From: a virus
IMG/VR virus record: IMGVR_UViG_3300046796_000345
Coordinates: 1-25,437 of that record
Length of the DNA: 25,437 nt
Strand: one strand, 5' to 3'
The number at the start of each line of letters is the position of its first letter. Within the stretch, counting starts at the first letter, position 1. Positions 3,337-8,856 of this stretch are shown here, in pieces. The notes beneath the pieces were generated by a model. It saw only the letters and a list, made by a program, of their open reading frames with translations, did not search any database and had not been told where the DNA came from. A program made the translations under genes and the position numbers.

Positions 3337-3345
3337 ATGGCGAAG
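3320..3345 (+). promoter_or_regulatory. Hairpin over the terminase start codon
   Basis: The sequence cttcg-a-cattg-cccc-caatg-g-cgaag folds into two 5-bp stems separated by a single A·G mismatch with a CCCC loop. The start codon ATG (3337-3339) lies in the 3' arm. No Shine-Dalgarno sequence is visible upstream. The hairpin could repress or time translation of the terminase ATPase. Confidence 0.5.
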
Positions 3346-4524
3346 AAGCCGAAGCCCAAACCGAAACGTGACTCACGCCCGCGTGTGCCCGGCCATGTGC
3401 CGAAGCGCCTGCGGCCGCGTCGTGTGATCACGGCGGCGGGTGTGGCAGACTCGATCGCGCGGCCGGTGGAGATGGCACCACCCACAGAGCTGATGTGGGA
3501 CACGCCAACGCTGGGGAGCCTGCCGGCGCCCGCTATCTCGTCGGCAGAATCTTCGCCGGCCGCACTCGCGCCGCCGGTCCCCGATCATCCCGTCACGCAC
3601 GGCGTAGCCCGCTGCCGCTGGTGTGGCGGCCGGTTCTACCTGGCGCACGCCGCGCCGCCGCAATGGCTCTGCCTCACGCCCGCGTGCGCGGAACGCCAGG
3701 TCGCCGCGTCCCTCGCGCGCACCCTGCCCGACAACGCGAAACCTGATGGCGGATCGCCCTGGCTGTTCCTGCCGCTGCCGGTCAACATCGATCTCGCGGA
3801 CTCACCACACAAGCGCACGCTGCTCGCCGGCGCCGCCGGGAGCTCAAAATCGTTTGGTGCAAGGTGGCTTGCATACCGCGAGTGTTTGAACCGGCCGGGC
3901 TTGCGCGTGATCCTACTGCGGACCACGTACGATGAAATCTACAAGAACCATTCCCAGTACATGCCGGCCGAAGCGGTCGATCTCCAACGCTACGGCCACG
4001 GGTACGTGAAATTCGCGGGCGGCAACTACAAAGCGATCTACTTCGCGAACGGCTCCGCGTTCCTGATGGGCGTGTGCGCGAACGAAGCGGACATCGCGAA
4101 GCATCTCGGCGCCGACCACGATCTGATCATCGTGGAAGAAGCGGTGAATTTTCAGCCCCGTGCCCTGACGGAGCTGCCGACGCGCGATCGGGCGTCCCCC
4201 ACGGCGCGCGCGCTCGGCGCGACGGACGGGAAAACGTGGATGCTCTCGAATCCTGGCGGCCAGGGCATGCTGACGCTCGAAGATTTCTACATCACGAAGA
4301 AACCCGATCCGCGCGAGTACCCGACCTACAACCCCGACATCCACGGCTACATCCTCGCAACGCTTGAGGACAATCCGTACCTGCCGGAGGACTACGCGGA
4401 AAAAAATCTCTCGGGCCTGTCGGCGGCGCGGTACCGCCAGCTCCGGTACGGCGACTGGTCCGTGTTCGTCGGCCAGTTCTTCGAGTTCGATACGAACGCG
4501 CACGTTCGCGAACTGGCGCTCTAG
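3337..4524 (+). CDS. terL: Large terminase, ATPase half only (no nuclease domain)
   Basis: A 395-residue product. Residues 1-90 are basic and disordered, and residues 93-117 form a zinc-knuckle-like cluster (C93, C96, C112, C117). The packaging ATPase follows: Walker A LAGAAGSSKS (163-172), Walker B LIIVEE (263-268, catalytic E268) and coupling motif LSNPGG (303-308). The end, YRQLRYGDW...GQFFEFDTNAHV, is the sequence that normally leads directly into the RNase H-like nuclease, but the gene stops five residues later (TAG 4522-4524). The missing half appears as a separate gene at 5435-6067. The protein would translocate DNA into the prohead through the portal. I prefer the ATG at 3337 to the in-frame TTG at 3328. 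Neither has a visible ribosome binding site. Confidence 0.9.
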   Translation: MAKKPKPKPKRDSRPRVPGHVPKRLRPRRVITAAGVADSIARPVEMAPPTELMWDTPTLGSLPAPAISSAESSPAALAPPVPDHPVTHGVARCRWCGGRFYLAHAAPPQWLCLTPACAERQVAASLARTLPDNAKPDGGSPWLFLPLPVNIDLADSPHKRTLLAGAAGSSKSFGARWLAYRECLNRPGLRVILLRTTYDEIYKNHSQYMPAEAVDLQRYGHGYVKFAGGNYKAIYFANGSAFLMGVCANEADIAKHLGADHDLIIVEEAVNFQPRALTELPTRDRASPTARALGATDGKTWMLSNPGGQGMLTLEDFYITKKPDPREYPTYNPDIHGYILATLEDNPYLPEDYAEKNLSGLSAARYRQLRYGDWSVFVGQFFEFDTNAHVRELAL

Positions 4525-4531
4525 GTGTAGA

Positions 4532-4549
4532 TTGTGGGCATGACCACAA
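4532..4549 (+). promoter_or_regulatory. Hairpin presenting the J-domain gene start codon
   Basis: The arms ttgtgg (4532-4537) and ccacaa (4544-4549) enclose the loop gcatga, which contains the ATG at 4540-4542. The gene has no strong Shine-Dalgarno sequence, so the start codon may be presented in a hairpin loop. This is a small structure and could be chance. Confidence 0.3.
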
Positions 4550-5169
4550 ATGAGAGATGGCCGCTCTCGTGGCCGTCCGGCTGGAAGCGCACCGTCCGCA
4601 CACAACGGAAGCGTGCGCGGTTCGGCACGAAGCGGCCAGGCGACCTCGCGATGCGCGACATGACGATGACGAGCGCGTTAGCCCGGCTGTTGTCGGAGCT
4701 GCGCCGGCTCGGCGTGCGCGACGGCGACGTGATCATTTCCACCAACGTGCGGCTGCGGCTCGATGGCTTGCCCTACGCCGGCGAGAAAGAACCCGACGAC
4801 GTAGGCGCCGCGGTGTACTTCAAACTCAAGGGCCAGGATCGGGTCCTGGCGTGCGACGTGTGGACGCGCGTGGCCGACAACCTCACGGCGATTGCTCACC
4901 ACATCGACGCGATCCGCGCGATCGATCGCTATGGCGTCGGAAACCTCGAGCAGGCATTTGCCGGCTATACCGCGCTGCCGGCGAAGGGGCAGACGTGGCG
5001 CACGACGTTGGGCTTCGCGCCCGATCAGCCTGTCACCCGCGAGGAGGTAGACGCGGCGTTTCGCGAGCGGGCGCGCAGCGCGCATCCCGACGCGGAGCAG
5101 GGCAGTCACGATGCAATGGCGTCTCTAACCGAAGCGCGGCTCGAAGCGCGCAAGGAACTCGGCGCATGA
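4540..5169 (+). CDS. J-domain (DnaJ-like) phage protein
   Basis: A 209-residue protein. It resembles a phage/prophage family that I know as J-domain-containing proteins: an N-terminal WPLSWPSGWKRT block, a middle domain (ISTNVRLRLDGLPY, EPDDVGAAVYFKLKG, ACDVWTRVADNLTAIAHHI) and a C-terminal J-like segment with the HPD tripeptide at 182-184. HPD is the J-domain motif that activates the ATPase of Hsp70/DnaK. The segment is short and lacks the full four-helix layout, so Hsp70 binding is inference. The ATG at 4540 is chosen over the GTG at 4534 because the WPL block then starts at the usual distance. The gene lies between the two halves of the terminase, and its stop overlaps the next start (ATGA). 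Confidence 0.8.
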   Translation: MTTNERWPLSWPSGWKRTVRTQRKRARFGTKRPGDLAMRDMTMTSALARLLSELRRLGVRDGDVIISTNVRLRLDGLPYAGEKEPDDVGAAVYFKLKGQDRVLACDVWTRVADNLTAIAHHIDAIRAIDRYGVGNLEQAFAGYTALPAKGQTWRTTLGFAPDQPVTREEVDAAFRERARSAHPDAEQGSHDAMASLTEARLEARKELGA

Positions 5170-5438
5170 CGGCCGCCGATGCCCTCACCGTCCTGGCGTT
5201 GAGCGGTGTGTTAATTCTCGCGTTCGTCGCCGGCCGCCTCGTCGAGCAGCGCGAACAGAAAGGGCCCGATGACCCTCTCCGACGTGATCGGCGCCCTCGC
5301 CATGATGGCGCTCTGGTTCCTGGTGGTCGAGCTGATGGTGCGATCGAACCGTCCAACCCGCGAGACGCCAAAACGTGGGACGAAATCCAAGCCGACACGT
5401 TGACGTTCTGCTCCGACGCGCGCAAGGTTGAGCGGTGA
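5166..5438 (+). CDS. Small single-pass membrane protein
   Basis: Ninety residues. A hydrophobic segment at about residues 6-24 (LTVLALSGVLILAFVAG) is followed by a charged region (RLVEQREQKG) and a polar tail ending TFCSDARKVER. The start overlaps the J-domain gene (ATGA) and the end overlaps the GTG of the nuclease-like gene (GTGA), so three genes are chained by 4-bp overlaps. The layout of an N-terminal anchor and a soluble tail, with another membrane ORF nested in a different frame, recalls Rz/Rz1 spanin pairs, but there is no lipobox and the location is not a lysis cassette. The function is unknown. Confidence 0.6.
   Translation: MTAADALTVLALSGVLILAFVAGRLVEQREQKGPDDPLRRDRRPRHDGALVPGGRADGAIEPSNPRDAKTWDEIQADTLTFCSDARKVER
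5269..5403 (+). CDS. Possible nested small membrane protein (alternative frame)
   Basis: A 44-codon frame lies entirely within the preceding gene in the +1 frame. It starts at ATG 5269, with a weak AAAGGG element 5 nt upstream. The product has one strong hydrophobic helix (VIGALAMMALWFLVVELMV, residues 6-24) followed by a very basic tail (RSNRPTRETPKRGTKSKPTR). This inner-membrane-like design is unusual for a chance frame in GC-rich DNA, but the outer frame also looks coding. Which of the two is expressed cannot be settled from the sequence. Confidence 0.35.
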   Translation: MTLSDVIGALAMMALWFLVVELMVRSNRPTRETPKRGTKSKPTR

Positions 5439-6067
5439 CACCTGGCATTTACCCGGTGAGCGGCGCGATGTACTGGTCGCAAACGGAGCCGGCCTGGATG
5501 GGCGTGTTTATCGGGCTCCCGGACGGCCGTCAGTACTGCCGCTATGAGCTGACCTGGCGCGGGACGCCGCCGGAAGATGCGGCAAAGGACATTGCGGAGT
5601 TCCGGCGCCGCGTCGTGCCGTCCCTCGGCGCGGTGTGGGCGCAACCGTCGCTGTGGCCGGAGAAAGTCACGGGCCCGTCGATCGCCGCCGTGTTCGCCTA
5701 CGCGGGCGTCACGCTCCGCAAGGGCAACGACGATCGCGTCAATGGCTGGTCCCGGCTGCGCTCTTGGCTGCGGCCGCGCGCGTACGGCGATGACTGGTCG
5801 CCGGGCTTGATCGTCCATCCCGTCTGCACGCGGCTCATTCGCACGCTGCCGTCGCTGGTCGCCGCGCCCGGCGATCCGGATGACGTGCAGGATTCGCCGC
5901 TCGCGTTCCCCGCGCATGCGGTGCGGTTCTTCCTGATGGGCCAGCCGCCGCCCTGGCAACCCGTGCCGGCGCCCGAACCGGGCCCCGATACGTGGGGTGC
6001 GGTTTTGCACAAATTCCGCGATCGGTCGTCCCGTACACTCGTCGGAGCAGATCTCGTCAAACGCTGA
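5435..6067 (+). CDS. Split-off terminase nuclease-like half, catalytic acids substituted
   Basis: A 210-residue protein starting at GTG, coupled to the preceding gene by GTGA. Its order of motifs matches the RNase H-like C-terminal domain of large terminases. MYWSQTEPAWMGVFIG lies where family members have MDWG; GAVWAQPSLW...GPSIAAVF where they have a DPS segment; then DDRVNGWSRLRSWL, HPVCTRLIRTLPSLV, DPDDVQD and finally AHAVRFFLM where others have ADxxRY. On this alignment the three metal-binding aspartates are Y13, Q70 and H161. The frame is intact, so the fold is probably kept while DNA cleavage is lost. The protein would be expected to associate with the ATPase half at 3337-4524. The domain identity rests on remembered family patterns, not on a search. 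Confidence 0.75.
   Translation: MTPGIYPVSGAMYWSQTEPAWMGVFIGLPDGRQYCRYELTWRGTPPEDAAKDIAEFRRRVVPSLGAVWAQPSLWPEKVTGPSIAAVFAYAGVTLRKGNDDRVNGWSRLRSWLRPRAYGDDWSPGLIVHPVCTRLIRTLPSLVAAPGDPDDVQDSPLAFPAHAVRFFLMGQPPPWQPVPAPEPGPDTWGAVLHKFRDRSSRTLVGADLVKR
6012..6067 (+). repeat. Direct repeat, copy 1 (41-bp perfect core)
   Basis: 6027-6067 is identical to 6311-6351 (41 bp). Both copies are preceded at the same distance by aattccgcg (6012-6020 and 6296-6304), with a 6-bp block of mismatch between (6021-6026). This copy encodes the C-terminus of the nuclease-like protein (SRTLVGADLVKR and stop) and precedes the first small membrane protein. Confidence 0.95.
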
Positions 6068-6096
6068 ACCCCGTCTCGACCCCCCGGAGGTTAGCT

Positions 6097-6282
6097 ATGG
6101 GCCTGATTGGCCTCGTCCTCGTCCTCGTCATTATCGGCGTCTGTCTTTGGCTGATTGAGTCGTACATTCCCATGTCCCCGCCGATCAAAGTCGCGCTGCG
6201 CGTCGTGGTGGTGATCGTGCTCGTGCTCTGGCTGCTCCAAACCTTCGTGGGCGACATCCCCCTGCCGAGATTTCACCGCTGA
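6097..6282 (+). CDS. Thivi_2564-like small membrane protein, paralog 1
   Basis: Sixty-one residues. Two hydrophobic segments (about 3-20 and 34-51) flank a conserved turn, SYIPMSPPIKV, which is the pattern I recall for the Thivi_2564 family of short bacterial membrane proteins of unknown role. The start at 6097 is set by a GGAGG at 6086-6090, 6 nt upstream; a longer in-frame extension to 5992 is only overlap with the previous gene. A second copy lies at 6365-6553. Two-helix small membrane proteins in phages can act as holins, but nothing else here supports lysis. Confidence 0.8.
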   Translation: MGLIGLVLVLVIIGVCLWLIESYIPMSPPIKVALRVVVVIVLVLWLLQTFVGDIPLPRFHR

Positions 6283-6295
6283 TGGGACAATCAGC

Positions 6296-6351
6296 AATTC
6301 CGCGGCGCCACGTCCCGTACACTCGTCGGAGCAGATCTCGTCAAACGCTGA
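6296..6351 (+). repeat. Direct repeat, copy 2 (41-bp perfect core)
   Basis: This copy, 284 bp downstream of copy 1, is non-coding and lies 13 bp before the GTG of the second small membrane protein. It keeps the full 41-bp identity (6311-6351) although the two following genes have diverged considerably. That contrast suggests a regulatory role or local gene conversion rather than a passive remnant. Confidence 0.95.
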
Positions 6352-6364
6352 GAGTCGAATCGAC

Positions 6365-6553
6365 GTGCTTCTCTTAATCGTTCTCGTCATATTGGGCGTT
6401 TGTCTATACCTGTTAGACCAAGACGTACCGATGTCGCCGCCGATCAAAGTCGTGACCCTCCTCGTCGGCCTGGCGCTGATCTATGCCCTCGCGCTCGTGT
6501 TGACGCAATCGTCGCTGCCCGAGCCGGGCATTGGCATTCCCGATTTACGGTGA
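6365..6553 (+). CDS. Thivi_2564-like small membrane protein, paralog 2
   Basis: Sixty-two residues with a GTG start. It shares with its upstream paralog the first helix ending GVCLYLL, the turn VPMSPPIKV, and a second hydrophobic segment (LLVGLALIYALALVL). The rest has diverged, and the tail (SSLPEPGIGIPDLR) differs in sequence while keeping an IPLP/IPDL-like ending. No clear Shine-Dalgarno sequence precedes it, unlike paralog 1. The arrangement of repeat and gene twice in a row indicates a tandem duplication. Its stop overlaps the next start (TGATG). Confidence 0.75.
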   Translation: MLLLIVLVILGVCLYLLDQDVPMSPPIKVVTLLVGLALIYALALVLTQSSLPEPGIGIPDLR

Positions 6554-6792
6554 TGGCCGGCGCGCGCCGCCTTGTTCTGTCGATCGCGTCTCCGCTCTGC
6601 GACCAGCGCGCGCCGTGTCCGCGCGCCGGTCGTGCCGTGTACGGTAGGCCACGGAAGATCGGGGACGCGATCAACTGCACGATCCGGTGCGTGACGTGCG
6701 GCGCGACGGGGGAGGAAAGCCGGAACATCGAGGGGGCCCCAAAGTCGTACATCGATCGGTATCTCCACCGCCGCTCGACAACAGGCGTATGA
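6553..6792 (+). CDS. Small cysteine-containing protein, unknown
   Basis: Seventy-nine residues, starting at an ATG that overlaps the previous stop. Cysteines occur in a first pair (CDQRAPC) and a second group (CTIRCVTCGATG), a spacing that could bind one zinc ion. The rest is basic, with RPRKIGD in the middle and SYIDRYLHRR near the end. I do not recognise a family. It sits just before the portal gene, where phages often carry small accessory proteins. Confidence 0.6.
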   Translation: MAGARRLVLSIASPLCDQRAPCPRAGRAVYGRPRKIGDAINCTIRCVTCGATGEESRNIEGAPKSYIDRYLHRRSTTGV

Positions 6793-6801
6793 TCGCGGGC
6801 G

Positions 6802-8856
6802 ATGTTCCCGCCGAACCCCCTCGGCGGCGGACCCGCGCCCGATCCGATCGCGCCGGATCCTGCGCCCGATCCGGCCGCCCCCGATCCGCTCCTGGTCTTG
6901 CCCTGGTCCGACGAGGACACGGGGAAGTGGCGCAAGCGCGTCGAAACCGCGAAACAGGGCCTACGCGAGGTCGTGGATGAAGGCAAGAAGAACATCGAGC
7001 GGTACACGAACCGCTACCTGTCGCGCACCGATCTGACGCGCGATCTCGTCTCCATTCCGCAATCCTTCGCGTTCACCGAGAACAAAAAACCCCAACTCTT
7101 TTACCGTGTCCCGGAAGTGCAGCTCACCGGGAAACGGCCGCAAGCCGATGCGGTCGCGCCGGTCGTCCAGAAAATCCTCAATGACTATCTCGGGCCGGAG
7201 CACACGAACGTGCGCGTGCCGATGGCCGAGATCGTGTTCGACGTGATCTGCCCGACCGGGTACGGCGTAGTGAAAATCGGGTACGAGTCCGCGAGCGTGC
7301 CCGTGGACGTGCCGGGCGAACCGCCCGCGCCTGGCCTGCCGCCTGGCCCGCCGCGCACCGTTGAGGTGCCGGTCTACGAGAACTACTACGTGCGCCGCAT
7401 TTCCCCCGGCCGGCTCTTGCGCCCGATCGAATTCCACGGGCTCGACTACGACCTGGCGAACTGGATCGGGTTCACGTTCGAAGAAGATGCGCCCGAAAAA
7501 GGGCCCGGCACGAAAAGCGCGGATCCGACCGCGGACGAACAGATGCTCTCCAAGCCCACCGTCGATGCCCTCACGGGCCGCACGGTTCGCACGGGCGTGG
7601 AACTCTGGTACCGCCGCGCGTCGTTCGATCCGACCGTGAAGGATCCGAACGAACTGGCCGTGATCGTGCTGATGGACGGGGAGGACACGCCCCGCGAACA
7701 TCGGCCGTCGCCGCTCCAACGTCGCGGGCCAAACGGGAAGTGGATCGGGATCGCCGGCTTCCCCGTGAAGGTGCTCAAGGTCCGCTATGTGTCCGACTCG
7801 GCCGATGCGCCCAGTGACGTGAGCGTGACGCGCAATCTCTCGGACGAGCAATCGCGCGGACGCACGCAACTCCTCCGCGCACGCGATCGGAAGATGCCCA
7901 CCGTGATTTACGACAACACGCGGCCGGGGATCAAAGACCTGATGGACAAGATCGAGCGGAACGAATCGAACGGCTTCGTCGGCGTGCCGGGCGATCCGTC
8001 CGGGATTTTCCACGTCCTCGACAAAGGCTCAGTGGGTCAGGAGTCGTACAACTTCAACGACTACATCGAGCGCGACATCGAAAAATCGTGGGCCTTCGGC
8101 TCGAATCAACAGGGCGTGAATACCGACTCGGCGCGCACGGCCACGGAACTCTCGATCGTGCAGGAAGCGACCAACACGCGCATGGCGTACGAGCGCGACA
8201 TGGTGGCGTACTTCTTCACCGACAAGATCGCCCGCAACGTCCTCGGGCTCCTCCAACTGTTCGCGACGGAAGAATCGTTCGTCCGCATCGTCGGCCCCGA
8301 TGGCGCCGTGAGCTGGAAGGCGTGGAACGCCGACAGCATTCAAGGCGAGTTCGCGTTCACGATCAAAATCAATTCGCAGCTCCGGCCCGACTCGGCCGCC
8401 GACCTGAAGCGGATTACGGATGTCGTGAACTTCAGCGCCAAGTCGCCGTACGTGAACCAAATCGAACTCTGGCGCGTGGCGATGCAAGCGTGGGGCTTCG
8501 ATCCGAATCGCATCATCCGTCAGCCCGATCCGCCGAAGAAGGAAGAACCGAAACTCTCGATTTCGCTCTCGCTCTCGCCGGTCGATTTCGTGGATCCCCG
8601 GACGCGGGTCTACGCCCTGGCGCTCGCGAAAGCGGCCGGCGTGGAGCTGCCGGCGATGGCCCTGCCCGGCGACCAGGCGCAGCTCGCGGCGCCGCCGCCG
8701 GCCGTCCCCGGCCTGCCGCCCGCGCGCGTGGGCGACAACCTCCACACGCCAGGGACCGCGGCCGAAGCGGATCTCTTGAACAAGCACAAAGCGGAACAGA
8801 CCGGCCAGCTCGACGGCGCGGGTGCGGCGATGGCGCCAGCTACGCGCGTGCAGTAA
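6802..8856 (+). CDS. Portal protein
   Basis: A 684-residue protein of the podovirus portal type, the dodecameric ring at the capsid vertex through which DNA enters and leaves. Supporting features are a Pro/Asp-rich disordered N-terminus (1-35), a region of conserved portal character (YTNRYLSRTDLTRDLVSIP; KKPQLFYRVPEVQLTGKRP), and a helical core with SARTATELSIVQEATNTRMAYERD followed by ARNVLGLLQLFA. The C-terminal 90 residues are rich in Ala/Pro/Gln. Length and position after the terminase and before scaffold and capsid agree with the call. The ribosome binding site is weak. The protein would contact the terminase ATPase and later the adaptor at 15713-16726. Confidence 0.9.
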   Translation: MFPPNPLGGGPAPDPIAPDPAPDPAAPDPLLVLPWSDEDTGKWRKRVETAKQGLREVVDEGKKNIERYTNRYLSRTDLTRDLVSIPQSFAFTENKKPQLFYRVPEVQLTGKRPQADAVAPVVQKILNDYLGPEHTNVRVPMAEIVFDVICPTGYGVVKIGYESASVPVDVPGEPPAPGLPPGPPRTVEVPVYENYYVRRISPGRLLRPIEFHGLDYDLANWIGFTFEEDAPEKGPGTKSADPTADEQMLSKPTVDALTGRTVRTGVELWYRRASFDPTVKDPNELAVIVLMDGEDTPREHRPSPLQRRGPNGKWIGIAGFPVKVLKVRYVSDSADAPSDVSVTRNLSDEQSRGRTQLLRARDRKMPTVIYDNTRPGIKDLMDKIERNESNGFVGVPGDPSGIFHVLDKGSVGQESYNFNDYIERDIEKSWAFGSNQQGVNTDSARTATELSIVQEATNTRMAYERDMVAYFFTDKIARNVLGLLQLFATEESFVRIVGPDGAVSWKAWNADSIQGEFAFTIKINSQLRPDSAADLKRITDVVNFSAKSPYVNQIELWRVAMQAWGFDPNRIIRQPDPPKKEEPKLSISLSLSPVDFVDPRTRVYALALAKAAGVELPAMALPGDQAQLAAPPPAVPGLPPARVGDNLHTPGTAAEADLLNKHKAEQTGQLDGAGAAMAPATRVQ

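Follow-up and report, generated by a model that had tools for sequence, protein, structure and literature searches.

The nuclease domain is reported to be fully functional in all packaging ATPases except those of phi29-like phages (PMC7672431). The C-terminal domain (CTD) of phi29 gp16 is a vestigial nuclease that has Tyr in place of Asp1 and still binds DNA; the authors of that study tied the loss to the unit-length genome of this phage (PMC7672431). A different departure from the usual large terminase (TerL) is known from Jug phages, in which terL is interrupted by group I introns and nuclease genes lie between the fragments (PMC12363816). Intron cases were the only split terminases that we found in the PMC open-access literature, where we likewise met no description of a clade with a nuclease half that is separate as well as acid-less. 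Detachment alone may not be new, since intron-split terL genes are known and two PHROG families annotated as "terminase large subunit" (5653 and 10250; 199 and 228 positions) match a nuclease half in size. The nuclease half of one relative described below (L024) matches these families, and the nuclease-fold protein studied here gave no match to either profile. As a possible precedent for a split we also considered the 181-aa "DNA-packaging protein" of Caulobacter phage Sansa, and rejected it because the Sansa terL is of normal length.

Here we analyzed a 25,437-base viral record, itself a fragment (IMG/VR IMGVR_UViG_3300046796_000345; hereafter, the window), for which a preliminary description had proposed that TerL is divided into separate ATPase and nuclease-like genes with two other genes between them. 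The relevant features are as follows.

3337..4524, + strand: ATPase half of TerL (395 aa; motifs and profile matches), ending at the ATPase/nuclease boundary
4540..5169, + strand: J-domain-like cargo gene (209 aa; phrog_9210, E 1.9e-52; HPD in SAHPDAEQG)
5166..5438, + strand: cargo gene for a small membrane protein (90 aa with a single hydrophobic stretch), coupled to the J-domain gene by an ATGA overlap
5435..6067, + strand: nuclease-fold half of TerL (210 aa, GTG start, GTGA-coupled; tblastn and AF2 model)
6802..8856, + strand: portal protein (SU10-like), given for context

Terminase domains encoded by separate genes

The product of ORF 3337-4524 has the ASCE ATPase domain of a TerL, with Walker A (GAAGSSKS), Walker B (DLIIVEE) and coupling (SNPGG) motifs, and it matches the Terminase_3 (3e-6) and phrog_2 (1.5e-16) profiles. 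Its N-terminal part contains a zinc-finger-like CxxC...C....C module (residues ~88-121) that is kept in all six of the related ATPases. The protein ends with ...GQFFEFDTNAHVRELAL, and alignment shows that fused TerLs run on from this point through a linker of ~15-20 residues into the first nuclease strand, confirming that the ATPase gene stops where a standard TerL enters its nuclease domain.

The start of ORF 5435-6067 coincides almost exactly with that first strand. This ORF is collinear with the C-terminal region of fused TerLs (2e-15 for the best tblastn match, MT836592), and the ATPase half matches MT836592 directly upstream of the same region. Sequence searches of the PDB returned nothing useful. 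An AF2 model built from a seven-sequence alignment (A8) reached a mean pLDDT of 79.7 and a pTM of 0.71; with four sequences the pLDDT was 40.8, and the increase followed the addition of L023, L024 and L010. The model superimposes on the D6E terminase nuclease with a Z-score of 17.5 (rmsd 2.4 Å over 151 residues) and on other TerL nucleases with lower scores (SPP1, 14.6; P22, 14.1; T4, 12.9; G20c, 12.9). In a Foldseek search TerL nuclease domains ranked first, with D6E TerL as the top match (E 2e-6). By its predicted RNase H/RuvC fold, the second gene is a stand-alone TerL nuclease domain. The proposal that a separate gene carries the downstream part of the terminase is upheld by the tblastn match and by this fold, and the split itself survives the structural comparison. 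The locus therefore resembles canonical TerLs (Geobacillus phage D6E, SPP1, P22, T4) in its ATPase motifs, nuclease fold and domain order, whereas those proteins combine both domains and the catalytic acids in one chain and here there are two chains lacking the acids.

Both genes are intact and under purifying selection. Between the window and the related contig L003, dN/dS (NG86) was 0.21 for the nuclease-like gene, 0.26 for the ATPase gene and 0.19 for the portal gene, and because the value for the nuclease half matches that of the portal gene we conclude, in agreement with the preliminary description, that the halves are not decaying. Within the 25.4-kb window fragment, to which the check for a complete terL elsewhere was confined, there was a single phrog_2 match and no second TerL ATPase.

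Relatives and interchangeable genes at the boundary

Scans of IMG/VR identified the relatives L002, L003 (also L006 and L016), L004, L017, L023 and L024; scans of genome contigs with portal and nuclease patterns gave no match. One of these, the contig L002 from sample 3300046780, is distinct from the window record and matches its arrangement at 100% identity. L003, L004, L017 and L023 share the boundary at which the terminase is divided, and each has different gap content; fused relatives were found as well. In a tree of the ATPases, the five split members group together in a single clade (100/98), which L024 joins as sister (100/99). We conclude from these five distinct split members, all of them on fragmentary records, that a group of uncultured bacterial viruses encodes TerL as two separate proteins.

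L024 has an intact catalytic triad and no insert, and its two ORFs, which lie in different frames, share 46 nt. This may be a genuine split at an early stage, or else a fused gene into which a sequencing error introduced a frameshift; if the split is real, it preceded the loss of the acids described below. A partial ORF (3-293) upstream of its terL had no significant family match. With its overlapping halves and intact triad, L024 might contain a frame break, and so lends something to the explanation that the halves belong to an ordinary terL, either disrupted through decay or an assembly error or rejoined by intron splicing or frameshifting. We consider this explanation very improbable for the group as a whole, given that the same split recurs in five distinct contigs as well as in the identical L002, that each half has its own start and is under purifying selection, and that rejoining is opposed at both levels: in the window and L004 the nuclease frame contains stops that block frameshifting, and an Rfam search of 73.9 kb, including all gaps, matched no family and hence no known intron. 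The two-polypeptide TerL of the preliminary description thus stands, with intact halves under selection, a split recurring in four other contigs and no route found for rejoining them.

The genes at the boundary vary with lineage. The window carries the J-domain and small membrane genes there, as originally described. The J-domain assignment combines an HPD motif with a weak Pfam DnaJ match (E 0.012, 16.1 bits, below the 27.8 cut-off). Of the start/stop couplings that had been reported, those between the J-domain and membrane genes (ATGA, 5166) and between the membrane and nuclease genes (GTGA, 5435) are present; the ATPase and J-domain genes do not overlap, as the ATPase stop lies at 4524 and the next start is a GTG at 4534 or an ATG at 4540. 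A hydrophobic 44-aa ORF (5269-5403) is nested wholly within the membrane gene in another frame, an arrangement reminiscent of nested lysis genes.

The corresponding gap holds a 222-aa low-complexity gene in L003, a single 38-codon ORF overlapping at both ends in L004, an HNH endonuclease gene and small genes in L017, and, in L023, a 75-aa ORF together with a gene for a membrane protein of 59 aa, a relative of the 6097-6282 product of the window. None of these four split relatives has the J-domain gene. Members of phrog_9210 in other phages are encoded away from terL; in Sansa the gene adjoins recombination genes, ~39 kb from the annotated terL. Since the split relatives carry other genes at this place and lack the J-domain gene, it is interchangeable passenger cargo and not a motor subunit. 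Its position between the halves and the overlap of the two downstream starts with their preceding genes would suit a genuine third motor subunit, the chaperone-like component envisaged earlier, yet with different genes at that place in the relatives and family members distant from terL elsewhere, we give that idea almost no credence.

How the boundary came to be interrupted is a separate question. Like the intron-split terL of Jug phages, this locus has terL fragments with a nuclease gene between them in one lineage, the HNH gene of L017 (2370-3332; Pfam HNH, 2.7e-11), whose start overlaps the 3' end of the ATPase gene. We can tentatively picture the split as the scar of an invasion of the terL boundary by a homing endonuclease or mobile intron, after which the halves stayed apart, the site gathered cargo and the nuclease half drifted to a non-catalytic role; introns and homing endonucleases do split terL in Jug phages (PMC12363816). 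This history concerns origin and is compatible with the mechanism that we favor below, but we consider it less likely than not, as Pfam HNH was matched in L017 alone among seven records and Rfam introns in none of the seven. In Jug phages splicing restores the reading frame, whereas here no group I or group II intron was matched between the halves and the cargo is varied and non-intron.

Loss of the metal-binding acids

To compare catalytic residues, we aligned six split pairs (window, L003, L004, L017, L023 and L024) with 16 fused TerLs. In the window's protein the catalytic positions are occupied by Y13, Q70, A157/F158 and H161, so that the conserved metal-binding acids of the TerL nuclease are absent. 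The first-strand Asp (D1) and the conserved C-terminal Asp (D3) are present in all 16 fused TerLs and in L024, and in none of the five clade members. In the order window, L003, L004, L017, L023, the D1 column reads Y, Y, Y, H, H; the D2 column reads Q, Q, Q, D, N (Asp lost in four of five); the D3 column, within the C-terminal DH...D motif, reads H, H, N, R, L; and the D/E/H column preceding D3 reads A, A, A, S, L. The association of acid loss with the split clade gave p = 4e-5 in a Fisher test that ignores shared ancestry, and because the five members share ancestry the loss comes nearer to a single event than to five independent ones. The earlier term "nuclease-like" is accordingly apt for the fold and not for the metal-binding acids, whose loss the preliminary description had overlooked.

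The structural comparison agrees with the alignment: if the first strand is ungapped, the superimposed ranges place D1 of T4, P22, SPP1 and G20c at model residue 13, a tyrosine, where we take D1 to be D401 in T4, D266 in SPP1 and D294 in G20c. In P22, D1 is D321 (PMC7672431).

From the lost acids, we propose that the product of 5435-6067 probably no longer cuts DNA; L017 retains the D2 Asp, and the D1 His of L017 and L023 could in principle bind metal. That the protein remains an active nuclease through substitute metal ligands (His, Asn, or neighboring Asp/Glu) is unlikely. The preserved RNase H fold, the D2 Asp of L017 and conserved acids such as D30, E38 and D100 are in keeping with activity, but the first-strand Asp, invariant across the 17 comparison rows, has become Tyr or His in five of five clade members, and the C-terminal acidic motif has become A/S/L and H/N/R/L.

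Two fused TerLs show other changes in this domain. That of L007 (556-1878; MT836592, a fecal phage) has a Pro in the D2 column (LAPPDLW), with D1 and D3 intact. That of L008 (3125-5173; Rhodobacteraceae phage LS06-2018-MD07) carries an intein-like insertion in its nuclease domain, between the catalytic EDH and the next helix.

Proposed packaging motor and neighboring genes

One of the closest known parallels is phi29 gp16, which likewise retains an RNase H-fold domain from the TerL nuclease after losing the acids, with the first-strand Asp replaced by Tyr. By fold and residues, the window's protein is such a vestigial domain, and it is probably inactive. In contrast to gp16, which joins ATPase and CTD in one polypeptide and serves a protein-primed, unit-length genome, the domain here is encoded by a separate gene and belongs to another TerL type. 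No match to the protein-primed polymerase family DNA_pol_B_2 (PF03175) was obtained in the seven records, all of which are fragments.

We favor, with a probability of roughly two in three, a two-protein TerL motor in which the second protein is an acid-less nuclease-fold subunit kept in trans and the boundary between the genes is a tolerated insertion site. In this model, the first protein would be a complete ASCE ATPase and translocase, and the second an RNase H/RuvC-fold nuclease domain devoid of metal-binding acids and probably non-cutting, which may be retained to dock on the portal, to grip DNA or to regulate the ATPase. Passengers at the boundary would differ by lineage, the J-domain gene being one of them. 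Cutting of genome ends would fall to another nuclease, or might be unnecessary. That such a subunit can be worth keeping follows from two precedents, the DNA binding of the gp16 CTD and the behavior of D6E TerL, in which removal of the nuclease domain raises the ATPase kcat from 7.8 to 457.7 per min (PMC5727402), so that a TerL nuclease domain does more than cut. The predicted structure draws on seven sequences, and because all records are fragments, a functional nuclease or another TerL may be encoded beyond the recovered DNA. The wider proposition, that these viruses form a tailed-phage clade beyond the phi29 group with two TerL proteins, a dead nuclease-fold subunit of structural or regulatory function in trans and genome ends made by something other than the terminase, we regard as evenly balanced.

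A clade whose nuclease is detached and disarmed would be a natural separation-of-function mutant, allowing a direct test of the non-cutting roles of the nuclease fold in portal docking, DNA grip and ATPase control, and it prompts one to ask by what means these phages form genome ends. It also carries a warning that a TerL nuclease half standing alone, or an odd gene adjoining it, should not be taken for a new motor part before relatives have been compared.

Several features of the surrounding DNA were also observed. A 69-nt stretch (6012-6080) that includes the 3' end of the nuclease-like gene is repeated at 6296-6364 with 83% identity, and the small membrane gene at 6097-6282 has a diverged copy at 6365-6553, the two repeats together forming a tandem duplication. 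A zinc-ribbon gene at 6553-6792, whose product weakly matches the restriction-alleviation protein Lar, is kept in L003 and L004. Divergent from the packaging genes, on the minus strand, are a ParA-like partition gene (156-800) and a P4-type primase/helicase gene (DUF5906; 1367-2728), both types of gene being also present in L016; these genes may suggest a phage-plasmid lifestyle.
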